A DNA stretch of 64,000 bases from Polytrichum commune (taxonomy: Eukaryota > Streptophyta > Polytrichopsida > Polytrichales > Polytrichaceae): assembly GCA_950295325.1 (NCBI GenBank), contig OX485808.1:17132527-17196526 (forward strand), in the 5' to 3' direction. Below the pieces are notes generated by a model. The model was given only the letters and a program-made list of their open reading frames with translations, was not told the DNA's origin and ran no database searches. A program made the position numbers and the translations under genes. Within the stretch, counting starts at the first letter, position 1. The number at the start of each line of letters is the position of its first letter. Below are positions 978 through 51,600 of the stretch, piece by piece.

Positions 978-1188
978 GGTAGAAATACCATTGGTCCGAG
1001 ATGACCTTAAACTACCAGATGATGGTGGAGAGATACCCAAATCTCAAGGAAGAGGTTGGCGGAACTTCGAATCCCAACTGTGAAATCTCCTCTCTACTTA
1101 ACGGAAATCTTGCCAGGTGGTCAACTGCCTCATGTGCTTTGGCGTTGGCCTGTCGGCCTTTTGTCTCAAAAAAAAAAGGTAGAAATAC
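978..1188 (+). mobile_element. tRNA-type SINE, copy 1, with 11-bp target duplication
   Basis: The body runs 989-1177 and is bracketed by GGTAGAAATAC at 978-988 and again at 1178-1188, a perfect 11-bp duplication. A pol III box-B-like motif (ACTTCGAATCC) sits at 1064-1074. The 3' end carries TTGGCGTTGGCCTGTCGG followed by CTTTTGTCTC and an A-run. A second copy of the body lies at 29878-30047. The 3' tail closely matches the 3' end of the LINE at 22722-22757, so the SINE probably borrowed that LINE's machinery. No protein is encoded; the small ORFs on both strands here are incidental. Confidence 0.75.
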
Positions 1189-14330: not shown

Positions 14331-14372
14331 TTATTGGTGAGAGAGAAGGCCAACAAGCCAACGCCAATGAAT
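14331..14372 (-). repeat. Orphan LINE/SINE 3' tail
   Basis: On the - strand this reads CATTGGCGTTGGCTTGTTGG, then CCTTCTCTCTCA and an AT-rich run. It is the same 3' tail as the SINE at 989-1177 and the LINE ending at 22757. It directly abuts the Harbinger-type MITE starting at 14376. Confidence 0.6.
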
Positions 14373-14375
14373 CAA

Positions 14376-14958
14376 GGGCCGCTTCACACTACGGTTGAAG
14401 GTCGAGAGGCCGTTGATTTCCACCAATCAGATTGCGAGAAACCCAAAATTCGGCCTCTCGGCCCTTCACACTAGAGGCTAAAGTCCAAAGGATGTTTCTC
14501 TTCAAGATGTCTACATGGCAGTGCTTTTTGACCAAGGCGACAAATTCTCAAAGAAAGTTTGGGTCGGACAGGAATGGAAACCCAAACTATGGTCAACAGG
14601 CTGTTGATTATTTTCCATGAAAAAAACCAAAAACTGACAAGATCTTGGCCGCTAGATTGGAGGGATGGTTTTGGGCAGGGAATAAAGTGGGATGCTCCTT
14701 CTTTCTTTAAACTTTGGGCTTGGCCTTTGGAGGCTTCACACTATGGCCGTCCAAGTCGAGAGGCCGTGGGAGTTCATGGCGAACGATTTGGACTTTGGGC
14801 TTGACCTTTGGAGGGTTCACACTGTGCGTGGCCGAAGGCTCCAGTTCCTATATTTTATTGGCTATGTATTTTCAGCCCATTTCTTTGGACTCTCAACAAA
14901 GTTTGGCCATTCAATCCCACGGCCTATCGACTTGGATGACCATAGTGTGAAGCGGCCC
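14376..14958. mobile_element. Harbinger-type MITE, copy 4 (diverged, 583 bp)
   Basis: The ends GGGCCGCTTCACACTACGG (left) and GGGCCGCTTCACACTATGG (right, reverse complement) match with one difference. The flanks are CAA and TAT, so the 3-bp duplication is no longer perfect. Inside, a GGCTTGGCCTTTGGAGG block followed by TTCACACT is repeated at 14718 and 14796. The 136-codon + strand ORF at 14692-15102 crosses the right end and has no domain; I treat it as chance. Confidence 0.6.
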
Positions 14959-15700
14959 TATGGACCAAGGAAAACATGCCCACTCCGAGGGGAGGCGGAG
15001 CCAATGTTCAATATTGAAGTCTTCAAAGCCCTTCAAACGCGATTTGGCCCTTCAAAATATACCTCTCTCAAAACAACCCTTCAAAATGCAACCCCGAATT
15101 GAAAATGAAGACGTCACTTGAAGTCCTCAATATAATCTACCCGCCACAACAACCAACAAGCGTAGGGCATTGTCACTACAAGAAGTGGAGTTAGATGGTT
15201 GATTCTTAATTCTTCACATTGTACTGGAAACATGTACCATGTAATACGTGCACAAGTTCAATATGAATTTTGTATTTCATTTCTATATTCTTAGATTAAC
15301 GTCTTGGATTTGAACCAGCCCTTCAACCGAAAAGCCGAAATTTGAGAACCCTTCAAAATAAAACTCATATGAGGGCTTCAATCTTGAACGCTAAGCAGAG
15401 CCCCTCGAGCGCAAAACCTCAATCACCACATAACTTAAAGAGTAGCAATTAACATTTCACTAGAGCTTTTGTTTCTATGTGGTTTCTGGATTGAAGAGGG
15501 AAGAAAAATCTACTGCTTAATTATGCGGGATCGGGCCTATAATAATACGACCCGAATCCACTGGCCACTTCCAGGAACTCAATGTTATAATAATACATGG
15601 GATTAGGACAAAAGTCACGATCCTCCAAATAGAGGCATCAATCCAAAAACTTCCATCATGGGGGCCCTGCCAGCTGATTGGCTGCTATATGTAGCCATGC
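14959..15700. other. Intergenic, nothing recognised
   Basis: Only the tail of the chance ORF mentioned above and unassigned sequence. Confidence 0.4.
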
Positions 15701-17034: not shown

Positions 17035-17860
17035 TAATATGCAGTTGACATTCTTAAAGCACAACATTAGGGGTTTGAAAGACTTGGAAAGCATTAATAA
17101 AGAGAGAAAGATGCTTAAGTGTGCTATCTCCAAGGCTGGACATTGTGTTAATCCAAGGACACAAACTTAGAGATCAAAACTTGGAGAACTTAGGAGGAAA
17201 ACTCATGCCTAGATATGCTAGTTGGGTATTCCTTGCTACACCAAGAGAGATAAGTTGGCTTAATCCCAATGTTGCAAGGAAGAGGGATAGGCATTTTTCT
17301 TTCTAGTAAATATGCTATACTAGTTAAAGCATATGGGGCACTCTATGCAAATAGGGTAATATGGATTAAGCTGGAAAGCATTGCATGGGGTAATGTAGGG
17401 ATGACATGTGTATACGTCTTAACATTCCATTAGGTAGAAGACATTTATTGCATATTATGCAAGATTCGCTCCCTAAAGATTGCACTTGGATTGTTGGGGG
17501 GAAACTTTATTATGATAGATTGGCCAAACGATAAGTATAATAACTATGGGAGGGCTATGAGTGATTTAGAAAGATTTAGCTCGAATGGATTAATGAATGG
17601 CCTCCAAATTCAAGACATTTTTGTATTTCAAAGGGGTGTAGTTTTTCTTAGACCAACATGCCACATGATGGGCAAGGAGGTTAGCAAGACTATATATGTT
17701 CTACATGGTTAAAAACAATGAATACAATCACAACGCATATTTCATACATGGACATTATGTGCTGTCGGATCATTATCCGATTCAATTAGAAATATGTTTA
17801 AGAAGTGAGACAAGTAGGAAGTCCTTCTTTAAATGGAATGTATCCCACCTCAAAGAGGAC
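17035..17860 (+). pseudogene. LINE endonuclease domain (APE type), broken
   Basis: This domain nicks target DNA to start LINE integration. A start-like segment encodes LTFLKHNIRGLK, matching the usual N-terminal '..HNVRGL' block. Then come IQGHKLRDQNLENLGGKL, and GGNFIMIDWPNDKYNN near 17500, where the family motif is GGDFN with a catalytic Asp; here that Asp is Asn. VLSDHYPI near 17759 is the SDH catalytic block near the end of the domain and is intact. At least four reading-frame breaks separate these pieces, so no active enzyme is possible. Confidence 0.75.
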
Positions 17861-18179
17861 TTTGCAAATGAATGAGGATTAGGTGGGACCGTATGATGAA
17901 GGATGTTTCTATCTTTTTCAAGATACTCTAGTAAGCAAAAGGCAAGGGAGTACAAAATAATGGAATTAGATACAAAGGCTAACCTTGAGGTGGCCATTGC
18001 CATTTTACATGAGGATATTTATGATGTTGAAAAACAAGGTGAGGGGTCCATGCTCAAAGGGATGGTAGAAGAAATAGAAACAAGACATGAAAACGTGGTT
18101 GTTATTTTATCCAGAGTTAAGTGGTAGCAAGTAGGGGATAGTTGTTTAAATTTATTTTCTTAAGACAATTAGGCAAAAG

Positions 18180-19304
18180 AATGCCAGGTTGATAATATCT
18201 AAATTGAAGGATAACAATGAAAGGGTGTTTACAAAGAAGGGAGACTTGGAGAGAATTTGCCTTGACTTGTACCAAGAGCCTTATCAACACAATAATATTT
18301 TTTGAGAGGGCATTAAAGGAGGTTTTTGATGGATTGAAACCCACATTTACTAGGGCCATGAACACTATTTTTACAAAGGATGTTACACCACAAGAGCTCT
18401 CATCCGCCATCACATCAACAACAACCAAGAAGGCACCTAGACACAATGGGCTCCCAATAGAAATTTTCCAAGAACTTTGTCCCACTTTAGGCTATGATTC
18501 CATTGAATGATACGTCAAAGGTATTGAACATGCCAGTTTTCATGAAGGAGTAACTAAAGGCTTAATTAGCCTTATACCCAAAGAGGGGGATAGTAAAGAT
18601 CTTAGTTACTAGAGGCCCATTACACTTCTCATTATAATCTATACGATCTTTGCTAAAACCCTTTAATTACACATTCAACCTATGTTAAGCGAGGTAATTA
18701 TTCCAAAGCAATTCGTTTTCCTCCCACTCTAGTTTATCTTGGACAATATAGTATTCACACAAGAAACGGTGCATTGGGAAAGGCCTCCAGACAACCAAGT
18801 ATTTTTCTTAGACTTAACTTTTTGAAGGTGTATAACAAGGTATCATGGCAATTCGTTTTCCAAGTCATGAAAGGAATGGGCATTTATGGGTAGTTCATGA
18901 GATGGGTTAAATTACATTTCAACAACACAAAGGTAATGGGCAATCTCAATGGGAGTCCTGGGAAAGTTTTAAAATTGACAAAGGAGTACAACAAGGTTGC
19001 CCACTTGGCCCCTACTTGTTATAAGCAAGGTCATGATTCATAATATTAAAAAAATAGAGGGCTGACTACATGGGTCCATACTTCTAGGGGGAAGAAAGCA
19101 ACAATGTAGTTCTCAATACATTGATGACTTGTTAATCACGGTTAGAGGTGATAGAAGATACATGGATGATCTTGTAAGAATTTCAAAGGTCTTCAATTAG
19201 GCCTCCAAAATGGAAATATACTAAGGATAAGTCTTGCGCATATTGGTTCAATAAGTACATACATTAACCAATTTGGCTAGCCACTTATGGATGGAAGTGG
19301 GTAG
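18180..19304 (+). pseudogene. LINE reverse transcriptase, N-terminal and catalytic part, broken
   Basis: Copies LINE RNA at the nicked target. Visible blocks in several frames: NARLIISKLKDN and VFTKKGDLE (region before the fingers); FTKDVTPQELSSAI then KKAPRHNGLP at 18340-18450; LISLIPKEGD and a broken RPITL block at 18550-18630; QGCP near 18995; and YIDD at 19117-19128, where most plant LINEs have YADD or FADD with two catalytic Asp. Both Asp are present. Many stops and frameshifts. The reading then runs into the insertion at 19313 and resumes at 20636. Confidence 0.8.
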
Positions 19305-20635
19305 AGGAGGGACACGGGTAGGTCACTTAGTGCATTTTAAAAACGACGTGCGGCATAATATAGAGAGGATTAAAATCATTTGAAATAAAAATTATAAAGG
19401 AATTCCAAATAATGAAGGGGCCATTAAATGTAGACAATCCCATTATAAGTAAGTTAGATGGACATAAAATGTGGGCCATTATTTTTTTGTAAAATTAATA
19501 TAGGGGCTGAAGATTAGGATCCTAGAAGGTATGTTTAGTATGTTTGCTATGGTCTCCTATGTGTTTTCTTCATAACTTTGTTTGTAATGATATTATTGTT
19601 TGCACCCTTCTTTGTTTCCATCCCGGGGAGGGCACTCGCAAAAATTTATTAAACCATGTGCAAAAGAATGTAGGGTACTTTTTATTCATTTGTGATAAAA
19701 TTTATACAATTCTTCGATATAATGAAGCACCTCTACAAATACAAAGTTGTGTGTATAAATAAATAAGGGTACCATATAATGCATCAATTTATCTAATTCT
19801 TTCAATCTAAAATAGGGTTGGGAATAGTAGGTAGAAAAAAAAATGTTGAGGCAGAGGTATACAATGCATTTTATGGTGGTCAATGGATGAAAAACTATCC
19901 ATTTTCAATCCAAATTCCCGAATGAAAAATTTGGATGACGAGGGTTTTGGTGTTCTTTGCTTTGTGCGTTGCCTAGGGTTGCTTACACCAATGCAACGCT
20001 GCTTGTGAGGCAGGATTTGGTGTTGAAGTTCTTGATTTGGTGTAGAATCATTTGATTGTTTCTCTATGGGCAACCGACGCCGAAGTTTCTCACGATATTG
20101 TACCAGACGAGAGACACTCTGCACAAGAGTCCTATGCGTTGTCATTCATGGGGTCAAATATAAAAATTATAAGGAACATAGGGTACTAGAAACTAGTTGA
20201 GTTGCGACTTTATAAATACAAATAGGGTCATTTAAAATGACAAAATTTAGATTTATCTGTACTAATAGGGTGTAAAGAATTCCAATTTCTTAGATAAATA
20301 GCCCCATGATAAATACCCTTCCGTCGCAGATGGGTTATTAAATACATGTATGAGTGCCCTCCCCGGGGTTTCCATGGTTTCCCTTAACACTCGTCAATGC
20401 GTTAGGAAGTAGATTAGCTTTTATTACTTAAAAGGAATATAGAGTACAAAAAATTGCAGTGACTTGGACAATATAAGTAATGGAAGGGTGCAAACAAATG
20501 GACCATTTTTGAAATTTAAGTAATTATAGGGAGGCTTTAATTCAACCCTTGAAGGTAAACAACCCCAAAACAAAAAACCCCCAGCCGCACGTGGTGCACA
20601 AAAATGCCTTAGAGTGACCTACCCGTGAGGAGGGA
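19305..20635. mobile_element. CACGGG-ended DNA transposon, copy 1, with 8-bp duplication (1315 bp)
   Basis: The element proper is 19313-20627, flanked by AGGAGGGA at 19305-19312 and 20628-20635. Its inverted ends share CACGGGTAGGTCACT, then a GCATTTT block, then ACGTGCGGC at about position 35-43. A further inverted pair, TTGTTTGCACCCTTC (19596-19610) and GAAGGGTGCAAACAA (20483-20497), lies inside, as does GGGGAGGGCACTC (about 19624) mirrored at 20350. The insertion splits the LINE reverse transcriptase, and LINE coding continues directly across the duplication. No transposase is seen; the - strand 112-codon ORF at 19807-20145 has no domain. The 8-bp duplication suggests hAT-like or P-like transposition, or Mutator-like if a shared 9th base is counted. 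Confidence 0.85.
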
Positions 20636-22520
20636 GACCTCTCTAAAATCCTAGATACCCCCTTGAGGAATTATCTCAACACACAAGATGGTGATCGAAT
20701 CCTTTATGGAAAAGTTTCTAAAAAGGTGCACTATTACAGTACAAAGAAACGTTCTTCGCGGGGAAGGTAGTGATTTGTAATTATGAGTCCTTCTTTCTAC
20801 ACTTTGGTTCTTTATCATGGTTTGGGGAGGCTCCAACAAGATTCTTAGGAGAATTAGATGCGCCATTCGTAACTATCTATGATCCTATAAAGACCAACTT
20901 ACACGTAACAAGGTTAGTTGGAAGGAATGCTGCCAGAAGAAGAAAAAAATACGGTGGGTTAGAATTAGTTGATCCAAAAGCCGCCAAGACCAACCTCCTT
21001 TGTAAGTGGATTATTAAGGCTATGAAGCTAGGTGAATCCAACTTATAACTTATGTTCATGTACAAATTGGCTAAATTCAACTCTCAAAGAGGAAGAGGTT
21101 GGGGGGTCAGCTTGGATTGGTTTACAAGTAAGCAACATTAAGGATACTCTAGGTCTAGAGTGTGGGGTCATATAAGCAAAAAATAGAAGATTATGGGGTG
21201 TATGATCTCCCCCCTCACTCAATTATGGAACTATTTCACTCTAACTTTTAGTGGTCAACAAACCTTGAGTTCATCAATAATGTTTTCCCATATGCTAGGG
21301 CCCACAAATTATATCACAAAGGAATCCAACGTGTTGGTGACATGTGGGATGTTGAGAATTATACATTCATCTTGTGGGATGAGGCCTAGATTAAGTTCAA
21401 CCTCGTAGTGCCAGATACAAATGATTGGATCATGCTTACCTCCAAAATAATGGGCCTATGAAGGCATTTGCTTGAGGATGACCCTCTTCTTACCCACCCC
21501 GGACAATGGGTTGGTTTTCTCATTGAGGGTGCATACGAACCGGCTATTGTTCTCTAGTGCACGATTGAGTTCACCCCGTGAGGTGAACACCAACATCAAC
21601 TTTTTTTTTGCCTCTATTGGTCAAGTGCTATACAATGGACACCTACTCTAGGTGCCTTAATGAATGGGAGAAACCTATAGGTGACATGGTTGACTTGTTT
21701 TATCATGTCAAAATCATTTATACCACTAGAGGTCAATAGAAAGAGGTTGGGTGAGAATCTTCCAAGGCAAAGAAACCACGCTTGGGTGGGATTCTGATCA
21801 TTGGAGGTGGGTGGGTGGTTTTCTTCTTTTTGAACTATACCACGGTGATGGGCCGCGATGAAATCGTTAATAGGTTCTCCAACATGTCTAGGGCAACATA
21901 CAAGCGGCAAGGCTACCTCCCTCACATTTACTAGTTTAAGTGGTCACATGTGTGGGACTTTGCTCGCTATGGCAAAGAGTTTGCATTCATGTGGTCTATT
22001 TGGCATAAGGCGGTTGCAATCAATGAATGATGAGCCTACATCGCCCCATCGTCCATCTCCAAGCAATATGTTTTTTTGCCTTCCTAACACTAGTGAATTG
22101 GTTAAGCATAAGTTTTGGTACTGCATCCAAGCCCAAAGGGCATGGTGGTGGATGACTTTCATTTTGACAAAACTTTGTGGGGTTAGGACATGCAACTACG
22201 ATAACTTCTACTAGAAACAAACCATGTTTGGGGAAAGGACCCCTAAAGACTTTGTTAAGAAAATCAAGATATGGCACTTGCTTCACGGCATCACGCTTGG
22301 GACGATATGGATTTGGCGTAATGATAGGGTGTTCAATCAAGAATAATGGCATGAATCCAAGGTTAAACACCTTATTTGGGATGAGCTTATTTTGTATGCC
22401 AAGATCACTTGGGCTAGGGTGGATAATTATGTTGAGATTAGTGTCTACTTGGCCAAAGCACTGCTCGAAGGGTTTGGCCAAACATGAGGGGGGGGGGGGG
22501 CAAGAACATCATGTGTAAAA
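20636..22520 (+). pseudogene. LINE reverse transcriptase thumb and C-terminal region, broken
   Basis: It resumes with a short stretch on the RT thumb side, KKVHYYSTKK near 20710, a family block usually seen as K...WS...LS.AGR. Next come VVICN, IRNYL, RRKKYGGLELVDPKAAKTN with LLCKWIIKAM (20930-21030), GWGVSLDWFTSKQH near 21100, then a weakly readable middle. QGYLPH and FMWSIWHKAVAINE follow at 21905-22030, then a zf-RVT-like end: LPNTSELVKHKFWYCIQAQ, KIKIWHLLHGITLGTIW and HESKVKHLIWDEL (22080-22400). It closes near a long G-run at 22489-22500. Frames change several times. Confidence 0.75.
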
Positions 22521-22757
22521 GGGATAGAATGAGGGTCACTTGGAACTGGAAGTGTCAACGTAGGTAGGTTGTGTGACTCTTTGGTTTATCGACTGGGGTG
22601 GGGTGATCCTTGGTGAGAAGGCTTGGCGAGTTTTTGTTAACTAATTCTTTTGTTACTCTTTACGTGGTGGTGTGACACGTCCAAGGGACCCTGCGTGTCT
22701 TTCTTGGTCGTCTTTTTGCATTGGCGTTGGCTTTTGACCTTCCGTCTAAAAAAAACC

Positions 22758-45627: not shown

Positions 45628-48600
45628 ATGCAAACAAAAGAAGAAGAGGTTGAGGGGGCAGCAAGCCTCTTGCTGCGGAGGGGGGGTTCCATGACTGCCT
45701 TACCACCTTCTTCAGCTCATGCTCATGCTGCTCATGTGCAGGGTGGGGTTGGGGGTGGTGGCCATGGCGCTGGTAGCCTCCTGCTCTTGCAACAACAACA
45801 ACAACAAGACGTCGACGCTGCTGGGTTATCCAGCAATGCAGCCGTGGATCATACAACAGGTTTGGACTACCCCAGTGTCCCAACAAGCTCATCAGGGGGC
45901 AGCAACAAGCGCAAGCGACGTCCTGCGGGAACGCCTGGTATCTCTTTTGCACGACCCAATCACTAGACTAGTTTTCTCTTCGAGATCCTGCTCCACTTCC
46001 CTACTCTAGATTTCTCTTTTTATGGCATAACCCTGCGTCCTCCATGTGGATGACTACAAGTTACAGACAGACAGACAGACAGACATTAATGTCGCCAACA
46101 TCATCACGAATAGCGTGCAAACTACGCGCCGGACTAGGTTATCTCCGAAACACCATCCAAACACCGAGTCTCTCAATCTTATCTCTTTTGAAGCCTTTAG
46201 CAATACATAGTTCTCTACGGTGCGTTTCATGATCCCGCACGATGATCCCTACTACTTTTAATCTTAATGATCATGCAGCCGCCAGGCTTGATGATCTGTT
46301 AGCCCATTGAGTCGCCTTCACCGGCTCTCGAAGTGTGGCTCCAGACTTGCTGCTCGTTGTGTGTGGAGGAAGCTCCAGGAGGGGTTAGCTTTCTGTGGTG
46401 GACTATACCGAACAATTACTACCAGCCTCTTGCTGCAGTCCACATAAACGAGGTCACCTAGCCAGTGTCACTTGCAGTTCAATGACGCCACTGCTGCTTG
46501 GCAGGTGGAAAATCAAGGTCCAAGAGTATCTATGTGGCCTGGCTAGCTCCCCTTCGGTAGGAGTTGTAACCTAAGCAGTGGCTGAGGGCTGCCAATTCTC
46601 TTTCCCACCCGACCTGCAATTCACTCAAACTGTAACTTTGACACATGATGAGGAGCCGAGTCAGGTGTTGAGGAAGAGGCCAGCTTTGAAACACCACAAG
46701 GTTGACAAGGACTCCCTCCAAGCAGTCCTCTCTCTAGGCCCACTGTTACTAGTCTTTCAGGTTCTCCAAAAGATAGACTTAGTACACACGATGGTGCCTC
46801 CCACTCAGCCTTACCCAGCGGTGTGGATCAGCTTCTAGCGCCACTGAAGACCGTGGATCTTGTAGGACGGGGCTAGACTTGCTGCAGACAGCAACAGAAA
46901 CCTATTGAGTTAGCCAGGCTTTCTTGACAGTTTAAACATGGAAGTTGCCTACATAAAGTGTCAAGAAACAATTAAGGATTTGTGAAGAGAACTAGACATT
47001 TGAGGGTAAGTAGTTCGGCCAAGGAGCGAGGACAGGATAACACCCACGTGCTTGGCTTGAGAGCAGCTGCTGCTTCCAACAACGTACTTGACTATTTGGA
47101 GCATTTTGCTTCTAGTCAGTCTATTGTCGATGACCATGTCTCTAGGTACGCACATTTGAGAAGTATCTTTATCAGAGACCAAGAAACTTTGGATGAGAAC
47201 TGCGAACACTGAAGATTTAGCTCCTTCACTATTAGCCCTATCTCCTTGCCCGTCAACAATTGGAGAAGACAGTCTTCTTCTAGTTCTTGCCAGAATGAGT
47301 CTATGATTACTCAATGATCGGAGGTTCTCGAGTATAGTACCCTCGAATGCGATGTTGGCATCCGCGGAACGGAGGATTTCTATGAGCTATACTGCTTAAC
47401 ACTGGGTACTAAGAGACGTGGATATTAAACTGTCATGTACAAGATAACAAAGTTGTGTGCTTATAAGTAACGACCTCTACTTTCTTCCTCAATGATGTTT
47501 GCAGACCCAGGTGCAGAGGTTGTTGCACTGTCCCCCAAAACGTTGATGGAATCGGACAGATATGTGTGCGAAATCTGCAATCAGGGTTTCCAACGTGATC
47601 AAAACCTTCAAATGCACAGACGCCGCCACAAGGTTTGCACTGCAGGCTTCACCACATTCTTCCGTCATTCCTCAGACCCCAGGTTGCTGCTAATTAATAG
47701 TCTAGGCACGTTACTAAAACGTGGATCTTGGGAACGACAACGTCTGGCATGCCAGCAGACTTGCTTGACATCTACATATGTTCCTATTCAAATGGCAGAG
47801 CCGCCTTAAATGTGTTGGACAAACACCACCTTTTTCCCTTCTGCAGGGTCATGGCAGAGTGCTAATAAGTCTGCTTGTTGCATCTGAGGCTAGGCTTCTG
47901 ATCACATTAATCTTTGGGGTTGCTGCCAGGTTCCTTGGAAGCTGCTGAAACGGCCGAGCTTGGGGACTCACAAACGTGTGTATGTATGTCCTGAGCGGTC
48001 GTGCCTTCATCACGACCCGGCGCATGCACTCGGCGACCTGGTGGGGATTAAGAAACACTACAGAAGGAAACATTGCAGCGAAAAGCAATGGAAATGTGAC
48101 AAATGCTCCAAGGGGTATGCTGTGCAATCCGATTACAAAGCGCACTTGAAAACTTGTGGCACCCGAGGCCACTGCTGTGATTGTGGCCGAGTGTTCTCTA
48201 GGTAAGAAGAAGCCTGGCAGATTATGACCAGCCAGGTGATCAATCATAATCTCTACTCAGCGTAAACCTGCACGATTCCAATTGCAGCACTCCTCCTTAT
48301 CCTAACCCCTTCAAGTCCAGAGTGTCAGGGTTACACTTGTGAATGTTGCAGATCATTTAACTCACTTCAGTACTTTCTTTGCTGATGGGTTATGCCGGCG
48401 AAGGTAAGACTGATCTTGGTTTCCATTTTTATACTTCTAGATTCAAGGTGTTGTTAGAGAAAATTCTTCTGTCGATGATGATTCAAACTTTGCTTCTTGC
48501 TAACCGTGACTCCTGTGCACAACTATGGAATTTACACAGGGTCGAGAGCTTCATCGAGCACCAGGACACCTGCAGCGACGTGAAACATAAGAACATGCAA

Positions 48601-51600
48601 TCCGAAGGCGGGGGTGACAGGAAGACTTCCCGGTTCGGCGGCCACCCGCAGCACACCCACGGGAAATCTGATGAAAGCCCTAGCCAATCCAGCGACACAA
48701 CCCAAGCCATCCCCTTCGCACACTCAGGAATGTCGGAGACAACAGCGAGTCGATCTGTTGACTCCACCCGGTTCGTCATCAATGAGCCGAGCGCTCTCCG
48801 AAGGCTGGAACAATCCAGCCCTGCAATGCATGCTGTGAACATGCCTGCTTGGCTCACGGATCAACGACGAAGCCACAACGAACTGGAGCTCCTTCCATCA
48901 ACTCATCATCATCAACACCACCAACACCATCAACACCACCATCTCCAACCACACCATCATCAGCAGTCAACCCCTGCTGATCATTCTTTCTCGGCGATGA
49001 AGGATTTTCGAAGAGAAAATTCTTCCTCTCAAGCTGTCAGTGGGTCAAGGTCATCAACCCATGTCCTCCGTTGCAGCTCTTTGAATTCCCGGTGCCCGGA
49101 TATTGCCTCTTGCACCGATCCAACCCCAGATACCCCACAAACTCAGCCGGTTGCAGATGATGCCCACACAGCTCCTCCTTCCTTGCACCTCTCTATAGGC
49201 CCTTCGAGTGGCGAGATAGGAACAAGTGGGAGCCCATTCCTAATAGAATCTTCATCGTGTATGCCGGACACCAAACCTCGCCTGAGCTCCCGAGAAAGGG
49301 ATCTAATGGTGCTCACGCACCAACAAGCGCAGCTGCAAGCTAGAGGGAGTAATTCTAACGTTACATCATTAGGCAAGGATCTGGCTCTGTCGTTTCCGGG
49401 AATTGTAGGATCACATCAGCCGGGCCAGGGAAACAGTTTGAAGCCGGAAGATCATCGTGGGAGGTCAGCCATACCTTTGACTGACTTTCTTATCCAGGCC
49501 GCCAAGCGGCTGGGGCCTCCTCTCTCTGATGACTTGCCAGACTCTCCCAGCCGAGATAACCCACCGAAGAAACAGATGAAATACCACACCGAACTGGGCA
49601 GGTCCCCTAATTACGGTGCAGGCATTGGTTCGACATTTCATGGGGATCAACGTGGGGTGATCCAGGAATCAGGTATAACTGTGAAGATGTACATTCTTAC
49701 AACTTCTCCATGACAAATTATAAGTAATGCTTCCAATGTTGCCGAGTTTTAAGTTTGGGTATCTATATAGTTGCAGTGTTCGTTGGTCTTCAAGTTGAAG
49801 TGCAAGTGCAGAAATTCAGGTTCTAACATGTTGGTGTTCATACACCCAATTTTTCGTTTGAACTGAAGATTCATCCGAACTGAGGACCTCCAGAAGAGGC
49901 AGTACTTTTAACTTCCAGCACTCTCCAGGCGCCGGACCACAGTTGGAGCCGGCCACTTCCACTTTCACACGCAGTCATGCAGCTATGGATCAGTCTAGGG
50001 ATGCTGCCACTCAAGCTTCGGAGCTCTTCGGTGGTTCCAGAGGCAGTGTAGGACCTGAAGCAGCTCATAGACAGAAAGAGATGGGCTGTCCTGAAGCAGC
50101 AGCAAGCCAGCCCACTGACCAGGTATATGTCATTTATTTCGTAGGATCAGTTAACTCTCTTTAAGATAAGAATGTACGCTGTTTCACCGACTCCCCAATG
50201 TCAGCAGCTCACATTCTGGACCATCATGTGACGATCATTTTCTCATGTACTACATGTCAGTCATAAATTAGTACAGGTTCAACCCAGATTGACCCCTCAT
50301 GACAAGAACATCATCTTCGTTAGGACAGTGATTCGGTGGCATACAAAAATCTCATCACTACGGATTTAAAGGGTTGCCACACACAACTTGAGCTGAAGCT
50401 CAGGGTTACAAGTTTCGTGGACCAAAGGGAAAGAATCTGAGCTCTTGCATGTGCCCAAGATGGTGGAGCTGGTTGTCTCCAGGTTGTCCCCCGCAATTTT
50501 TAGATTGATTTTCAAGTTCGAGCCCAAACACGAACTTGAAGAATGTTCGATGACTACAAGTTCAAGTTCGGATTTGAACGTGTAAATCAATCCAAGAAAA
50601 GGAGCAAAACTAAAGCTCCTGCATCATTTTAGGCACTTGTAACGTAGGGTCCAAATTCTTTTACCTTGGCCCATGAAGCTTGCAACTTGAGCTTCAGCTC
50701 AGGCTGCGTGTGGCTGGAGCATTCAGTGACCATCATAGCTTAGATTCATCGGCTTGTTAACTTTCTGGTAGCGCAGAGGGTGGAGACGAAGGTGTTGTAT
50801 ACCTGCAAAGGCTTAGAGTCATCGGCTTGACAATTGGACTACACTAGTCTCCCTTTGTAGATGGTGCCACACAAGACCTAGCCTAAGTTGTTAAATTGCT
50901 GGTTGCAGGTTCGAACAGATATGATGAGCACAGGTTGGTGTGATCTCGCTGCTGCCAGGCGAACAAGAGAGCAAGCTCGGCAAGAGAGCCACGAAGCCCA
51001 GAAGGAGATTGCAAGAGCTGACCATCTGAAACGAGAAGCACGAGAGCAGCTGCAACTAGCTTCACAAGACCGAGCCTACGCCGAGCACGCCAGGGAGATC
51101 GCCAAGCGGGAAATGGACTTGGCCCAAGTGGAGCTTGCCAATGCCAAACGGCTACGTGAGCATGCGCAAGCCGAATTGGACAGGGCTCAGTCGTTGAAAT
51201 CGGAGCGAGCTGCAGATCGCTCCCTCTGCCAATCGTGCAGCAAGATGTTTACCAACGATCAATATAATTCCAATCGCATGCAGCAGTCATCGACTCCTGC
51301 AGTTTTACACATGAGGACACCGCACACCTTGCAGATCACCGAGTTGCAGCAAAGTACAGGTGATAGGAACTCTCACAGTGCAAGTGACTGGCAGAGTTTA
51401 ATGCTGAGTCTCTGTTAATGCATTCTTTTCCTTCAGGATTTTGATATTTGTGTAATGCTACCTCTGAAACATTTAGCAAATTATGAGTCATTCAACATTG
51501 ATTCAGGCTGCTCGTAATTCAACCTTTCAGATGTTGCAACCATAAAGTATAGAGAAATAGAAGATCAAAATGCAATCGCAACCCTGTGTTTGGTAGTCAT

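Follow-up and report, generated by a model that had tools for sequence, protein, structure and literature searches.

A tRNA-like SINE and an L1-type LINE of the moss Polytrichum commune share their 3' terminus

Elements at the locus

The window, meaning the whole stretch of 64,000 nucleotides analysed from Polytrichum commune (GCA_950295325.1, contig OX485808.1, positions 17,132,527 to 17,196,526), carries a tRNA-like SINE, a decayed L1-like LINE and a third copy of the 3' tail that both possess, with the following features in window positions.

976-988, + strand: 5' target-site duplication (TSD) of the SINE, AAGGTAGAAATAC, 13 bp
989-1177, + strand: tRNA-like SINE copy, having a body with B box, the shared tail and an A-run
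1138-1167, + strand: shared tail of the SINE, TTTGGCGTTGGC-CTGTC-GGCCTTTTGTCTC
1176-1188, + strand: 3' TSD of the SINE, AAGGTAGAAATAC, its first two A's overlapping the A-run
14339-14367, - strand: third tail copy, TTGGCGTTGGC-TTGTT-GGCCTTCTCTCTC, with the exact 11-mer at 14357-14367; not mentioned in the earlier note
14376-14958, - strand: MITE-like insert with terminal inverted repeats GGGCCGCTTCACACTATGGT / ACCGTAGTGTGAAGCGGCCC, read by eye
14961-15000, - strand: LINE 3'UTR segment, probably contiguous with the third tail until the insert arrived
17036-22755 (start approximate), + strand: decayed L1-like LINE, having ORF2 remnants (17036-22564), 3'UTR, tail and A-run
19313-20626 (limits approximate), strand not assigned: stretch without ORF2 similarity inside the LINE (tblastn gap), probably an insertion
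22721-22748, + strand: shared tail of the LINE, TTGGCGTTGGC-TTTT-GACCTTCCGTCTA
22748-22755, + strand: A-run at the LINE 3' end

The SINE tail is composed of TTGGCGTTGGC (1139-1149), CTGTC (1150-1154) and GGCCTTTTGTCTC (1155-1167), followed by the A-run (1168-1177), and the TSD scan gives its flanks as a 16-nt match with one mismatch. Its B box, TTCGAATCC, is located at 1066-1074, right after a 3-nt insertion relative to other copies. In the LINE, the corresponding parts are TTGGCGTTGGC (22721-22731), TTTT and GACCTTCCGTCTA (22736-22748). The earlier note had claimed that a SINE and a LINE of this window share a 3' tail and an A-run, and both tails are indeed present, far beyond chance. Regarding the coding part of the LINE, a tblastn comparison with the ORF2 of a genomic copy having open frames (L081, described below) gave piecewise matches at 36-65% amino-acid identity, and the ORF1 of that copy had no tblastn match over the window.

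The third tail is probably the 3' end of another LINE, split by a transposon-like insert, and the UTR segment beyond the insert matches the LINE UTRs of L066 and L070 by blastn over 29-30 nt. The 11-mer of the tail, with up to two mismatches, has 19 matches in the window (three of them exact) versus 10.6 expected, a number reached by 3 of 100 shuffles.

As for the insert itself, a MITE-like element whose terminal repeats begin with GGGCCRCTTCACAC was seen in at least three places: the window (14376-14958, - strand), L168 (approximately 1676-2190, element strand) and L062. The 8-nt flanks of the window insert, TTGGTCCA and TTGATTCA, look by eye like the remains of an 8-bp duplication (hAT-like). 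Elsewhere in the window, at 47492-49713 (+ strand), open frames resemble, by eye, parts of a plant C2H2 zinc-finger (IDD-like) gene.

Other genes of the genome

Two open frames outside the retroelements were compared with proteins of solved structure. The Lhca3-like frame L129 has its best matches in 8htu, 7xqp, 7ksq, 6l35 and 9lut (433-441 bits), with 9gbi at 398; 8htu, 7ksq and 6l35 are entries that we take to be from mosses. The frame L128 best matches chain 9 of 8htu and 7xqp, with 396 and 383 bits over a single stretch, followed by chains of 9vfj that bear repeats (374 bits, the sum of two stretches) and then 6kac_N (241 bits). Judging by its label, chain 9 of 7xqp and 8htu is presumably Lhcb9. 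According to the available part of PMC12965295, 7XQP is a Physcomitrium patens structure, and the moss-specific Lhcb9 is cited as part of that supercomplex; the available part of PMC2323573 describes Lhcb9 as found only in Physcomitrella as of 2008. The L128 match points to a moss genome. Clusters of chlorophyll a/b-binding protein genes were also seen on contig C5 (1.75-1.85 Mb, 14 equal-score matches) and on C2 (29.39-30.91 Mb, seven weak matches, their scores almost equal).

The SINE family

The genome searched comprises 407.8 Mb in 64 contigs, where C1-C7 measure 42-78 Mb; most sampled loci lie on C1 and C2, and the LINE ends and aligned SINEs extend to others. A 28-base segment of the SINE body has 317 exact matches in it, compared to none for the reversed control, and the window SINE used as a query gave 41 listed matches besides itself, with 91-95% identity (40 scored of 1639 first-look candidates). 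Twenty-one SINEs, consisting of the window copy and the 20 next best in the genome similarity search, which are not a random sample, share the start GGTCCGAGATGACC and can be aligned from there to an A-rich run. Their consensus measures 172 nt up to the tail end, having the B box GGTTCGAATCC at position 69 and a box A-like stretch near position 21 that was assigned by eye only. In being short and multicopy, with an A-run and TSDs, the family resembles tRNA-derived SINEs, and it is a tRNA-like element presumably transcribed by Pol III; a scan of the 64-kb window with ARAGORN gave no tRNA gene. Membership of the Au SINEs, which end in (T)2-5 according to the available text of PMC3747384, was rejected, as an A-rich run follows the 21 aligned copies.

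The family ends in TTTGGCGTTGGC-NTGTC-GGCCTTCTGTCTC-A(n). When SINEs were selected by the body only, the tail was present in 19 of 20, with up to three substitutions allowed per block; these 20 were hand-picked among those of the 317 body-segment matches that were listed and are not random. The one tail-less copy (L156) still has the left block, after which a microsatellite replaces the rest. The position of the tail is identical in 18 of the 19, the exception being L165, where the left block is shifted by indels. A search for other SINE families with this tail, made in one range of distances between B box and tail, gave 177 matches, and the listed ones look by eye like the same family.

The LINE clade and a member with open frames

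LINE copies of this clade end in TTTGGCGTTGGC-N(mostly 4-6)-GGCCTTCTGTCTC-A(n), and the clade is diverse: the window LINE 3' end, used as a query, matches other copies at 68-79% identity excluding itself, with one short piece at 85% (40 scored of 244 candidates). Of 20 stretches picked for their likeness to the window copy, 13 carry the tail when up to four substitutions per block are allowed, one of them doubtfully (L011), and in the other seven it is absent, cut, rearranged or more altered yet visible (L018). Ends were then also chosen blind to the tail, by a pattern of the upstream UTR that stops approximately 35-50 nt before it and has 82 matches in the genome and none reversed. The tail is carried by 37 of 40 ends hand-picked, not at random, from those 82, compared to 2 of 2000 shuffled sequences; of the three scored as tail-less, L088 and L110 retain recognisable parts and L123 none.

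One copy (L081/L168) has both reading frames open, a tail with the centre CGTTT and an A-rich run. Its ORF1 encodes 824 aa from the first Met, matching DUF4283 with 31.8 bits on the first 419 aa (cut-off 27.2), and has a CX2CX4HX4C motif read by eye; a profile search of the last 468 aa gave no family match. The ORF2 frame, with 1420 aa, covers endonuclease, RT and zf-RVT, where RVT_1 and Exo_endo_phos score above the cut-off and zf-RVT, with 26.1 bits, just below its cut-off of 27.5. The nearest solved protein in the PDB is human L1 ORF2p (E 1.4e-53), with R2 at E 5.6e-22. Judging by these predicted products, the LINE has the organisation expected of a plant L1-type element, that is, ORF1 plus an ORF2 with APE-type endonuclease, RT and zf-RVT. 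A 16-bp candidate TSD, CAAATGGATGATATTG, lies on both sides of this copy. This copy sits within a local duplication that has diverged, and its 3' flank has another match of approximately 21 nt, longer than the nearer one, at a distance of 0.76 kb beyond it; the nearer TSD is preferred because a MITE-like insert lies between, and the exact 5' end is tentative.

The shared tail

The strict tail pattern, TTGGCGTTGGC-N{4,12}-GGCCTTNTGTCTC, has 336 matches in the genome and none when reversed, and a pattern with a freer middle plus three A's has 349, again with none reversed. When the consensus of the SINE tail (30 nt) is set against a representative LINE tail (31 nt), each typed from the alignments, 28 of 31 columns are identical and there is a single 1-nt gap. 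The tails of the two elements are more alike than the raw strings given in the earlier note, because a variable centre separates two conserved blocks. These blocks show almost no change in 36 LINE and 21 SINE tails. The centre, meanwhile, is CTGTC or ATGTC in 18 of the 21 SINEs, and in the 36 LINE tails it has 4-6 nt of many sequences; single tails with a 3-nt or 7-nt centre were also seen, and the NTGTCGGCC centre of the SINE was found in no sampled LINE end. Upstream of the blocks, LINE copies are mostly 69-77% identical (one pair 87%), and both the spacer before the tail and the centre vary freely.

Comparing the tail with the LINE ends, the alignment score is 45, versus a maximum of 28 in 60 shuffles. 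Between the SINE body and the LINE UTR there is no similarity, the score of 17 lying beside a shuffle mean of 18 and being reached by 44 of 60 shuffles. The homology of SINE and LINE is therefore confined to the tail, body and UTR being otherwise unrelated by alignment. The earlier note had proposed to collect the copies of both elements, where LINE ends differing from the SINE tail would point to a chance match; the collected ends did not point that way, 37 of the 40 LINE ends and 19 of the 20 SINEs sharing it.

Insertion marks

Both SINE and LINE copies are inserted with TSDs and end in a 3' repeat, the marks expected of target-primed reverse transcription, and A-rich runs terminate the copies read. 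TSDs scoring at least 11 were found in 16 of 21 SINEs, compared to 0 of 161 mismatched-pair controls, and they lie outside body plus tail. Tails with other centres have such TSDs in 10 of 20 cases (control 3/152), these 20 being picked for variety, not at random, from the listed part of the 336 strict matches. The shortest inserts consist of the tail and a few bases before it, then an A-rich run, with lengths of 32 nt (L059), 37 nt (L057) and 44-45 nt (L074 and L062); the sites of tail-only inserts were located via the tail blocks themselves.

RNA structure

The shared stem-loop that the earlier note had suggested for the tail did not find clear support. The tail folds, with GGC/GCC inner pairs and GGCG/C-UGUC outer pairs drawn as a hairpin of 3-4 bp around the variable centre, but the energies are not clearly below those of shuffles (-10.2 in the SINE tail versus a mean of -8.3, sd 2.6). 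Over 52 tails no pair exceeds shuffles, and in an alignment of 37 sequences 107 of 109 cells are paired, a value reached by 160 of 1000 shuffles. Covariation in the stem cannot be judged, because its positions hardly vary. The long-range pairing of the tail with TGGCGG of the LINE UTR, drawn by RNAalifold, equals the shuffles (182/185 observed).

A two-part hairpin located in the LINE UTR approximately 20-65 nt upstream of the tail (CGCGCCC..GGGCGCG and GAGGGG..CCCCTC, in L088-L127), however, covaries. Its paired cells are 414 of 442, versus a shuffle maximum of 406, and 24 cells are changed on both sides, versus a shuffle mean of 9.4 and a maximum of 17 in 1000, where 3 of the 12 pairs are fixed by the search pattern and the shuffles ignore relatedness. 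Slid versions of the hairpin pair less (205-288 cells). No such element was seen in the SINE.

Other LINEs of the same genome

A search for zf-RVT gave 141 matches in the genome, and the tail was present in none of 15 fetched loci, bar a chance-like partial match in L052. These loci are other LINE groups, with approximately 22-39% amino-acid identity to the ORF2 of L081 over the matched stretches. Six of them (L041 and L045-L049), as distinct from the other nine (L042-L044, L050-L055), form a second LINE group by blastn. The 3' end of this group, visible in L045, L047 and L048 and altered in L041, lies near AATTGA-N-TCAATTTGTGCC-A(n), whose arms can pair. Its terminus, TTCAATTTGTGCC-A(n), searched with the strict pattern TTCAATTTGTGCCNAAA, has 376 matches in the genome and one reversed, and TSDs scoring at least 11 accompany 7 of 15 such tails (control 2/111). 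A SINE with the second-group tail was searched in one range of distances between B box and tail, giving one match, unlike the expected form, and none reversed. Among the second-group tails examined (L133-L147), the insert at L141 seems to be approximately 13 nt of terminus plus A's between duplications.

What the shared terminus may mean

At the sequence level the pair is established, the last 30 nt of the SINE before the A-run being homologous to the 3' terminus of a clade of L1-type LINEs in the same genome. Stringent 3'-end recognition, where the SINE would be mobilised by the LINE enzyme via the shared tail, is the probable explanation. The ORF2 protein of the LINE would bind the terminal RNA, formed by the two conserved blocks, the variable centre and then A's, and target-primed reverse transcription would start at that terminus; SINE RNA, carrying the same terminus, would then be copied and inserted by the LINE enzyme. 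The enzyme presumably reads the tail and cannot use A-runs alone, and the tail presumably folds. Recognition of the blocks fits the data because the centre varies between fixed blocks. The copy with open frames (L081/L168) is a candidate partner of the SINE. The stringent-LINE pattern claimed by the earlier note is supported by the frequency of the tail in both elements, the enzyme presumably requiring it.

Weighing against stringent recognition are the tail hairpin that shuffles match, the lower yield of tails in the LINE sample picked by likeness to the window copy (13 of 20), the UTR hairpin that the SINE does not share, and the SINE centre NTGTCGGCC, which is missing from every sampled LINE end. 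As the copies also end in A-rich runs, A-run recognition could suffice. The SINE would then have originated through a template switch to a LINE 3' end, and the A-run alone would now prime both elements of a relaxed L1, the tail being a fossil. The A-rich ends of the copies read favour this reading, as do an L1-like ORF2, most flowering-plant L1s being considered relaxed in the available part of PMC3747384, and a tail hairpin that has support neither from energy nor from covariation. It is nevertheless unlikely, since the blocks are nearly fixed while the neighbouring spacer and the centre vary freely among diverged LINE copies. Inserts cut down to the tail also keep the blocks, but the blocks were what located those sites, and the same outcome would follow from 5' truncation alone. 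A signal for host processing or export, carried by both elements and not addressed to the LINE enzyme, is very improbable: the tail is the exact 3' terminus adjoining the A-run in both, and the second LINE group of the same genome ends differently, which points to a signal of the element and not of the host.

Inserts of little more than the tail exist, so a tail-only LINE insertion nested in a SINE could be imagined, as could a chance match. Both have next to no probability and are ruled out by the counts, since the tail lies at the same place in 18 of 19 SINEs with TSDs outside body plus tail, and the strict tail has 336 matches against none reversed.

Comparison with known systems

The pair is of a known kind, and none was found reported for mosses or other bryophytes in the open-licence literature searched. 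That search was made by title and does not imply absence in print; the available part of the AnnoSINE paper (PMC8825457) does not mention moss, bryophyte or Physcomitr-. The three flowering-plant pairs listed in the available text of PMC3747384 accord with the claim of the earlier note that few plants have reported LINE/SINE tail pairs.

The model applied to the moss comes from stringent LINEs of fish. Those of zebrafish reportedly belong to another LINE clade, and their recognition is said to have been tested by assay. In such LINEs, the recognised part is a terminal 3' RNA segment (available part of PMC4176376). Closer to the moss, ZmSINE2 and ZmSINE3 of maize and sorghum are likewise tRNA-related SINEs having a short 3' end in common with an L1-clade LINE, LINE1-1_ZM (available parts of PMC2774510 and PMC3747384). 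There, the shared region has approximately 50 nt and a hairpin backed by compensatory changes, with the loop UCU and the flank CGAG, whereas the moss tail has other letters, approximately 30 nt and a hairpin only drawn by folding; ZmSINE2 ends in T-runs and ZmSINE3, like the moss SINE, in A-runs (same sources). The Chlamydomonas pair of SINEX-3_CR and L1-1_CR is also a green-lineage L1-clade pair with A-run ends, its shared end having approximately 80 nt compared to approximately 30 nt in the moss, and the tobacco TS SINE likewise has a LINE-derived tail, from RTE-1_Stu, but that pair belongs to the RTE clade with a (TTG)n end, while the moss pair is L1-like with an A-run end (both in the available text of PMC3747384). 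A LINE enzyme reading the tail would be the natural reading and would agree with the maize and Chlamydomonas L1 pairs, as far as the available parts of PMC3747384 and PMC2774510 describe them.

The same 2013 review (PMC3747384, available part) proposes recognition of a specific 3' end by an ancestral green-plant L1, with loss of this trait in some of the flowering plants, the L1 pairs behind the proposal being those of grasses and one green alga. It is a tentative suggestion, perhaps not the likelier one, that the relaxed A-run priming of many flowering-plant L1s would be a later loss and that, going by the shortest inserts, approximately 32 nt plus A's may be a sufficient template. The genome offers natural deletion data for such questions, in its tail-only inserts, a tail with free centre, a differently tailed second LINE group and a LINE with both frames open. 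With its place between the L1/SINE pairs of the alga and those of the grasses, the moss pair makes the proposal of ancestral stringency testable in bryophytes.
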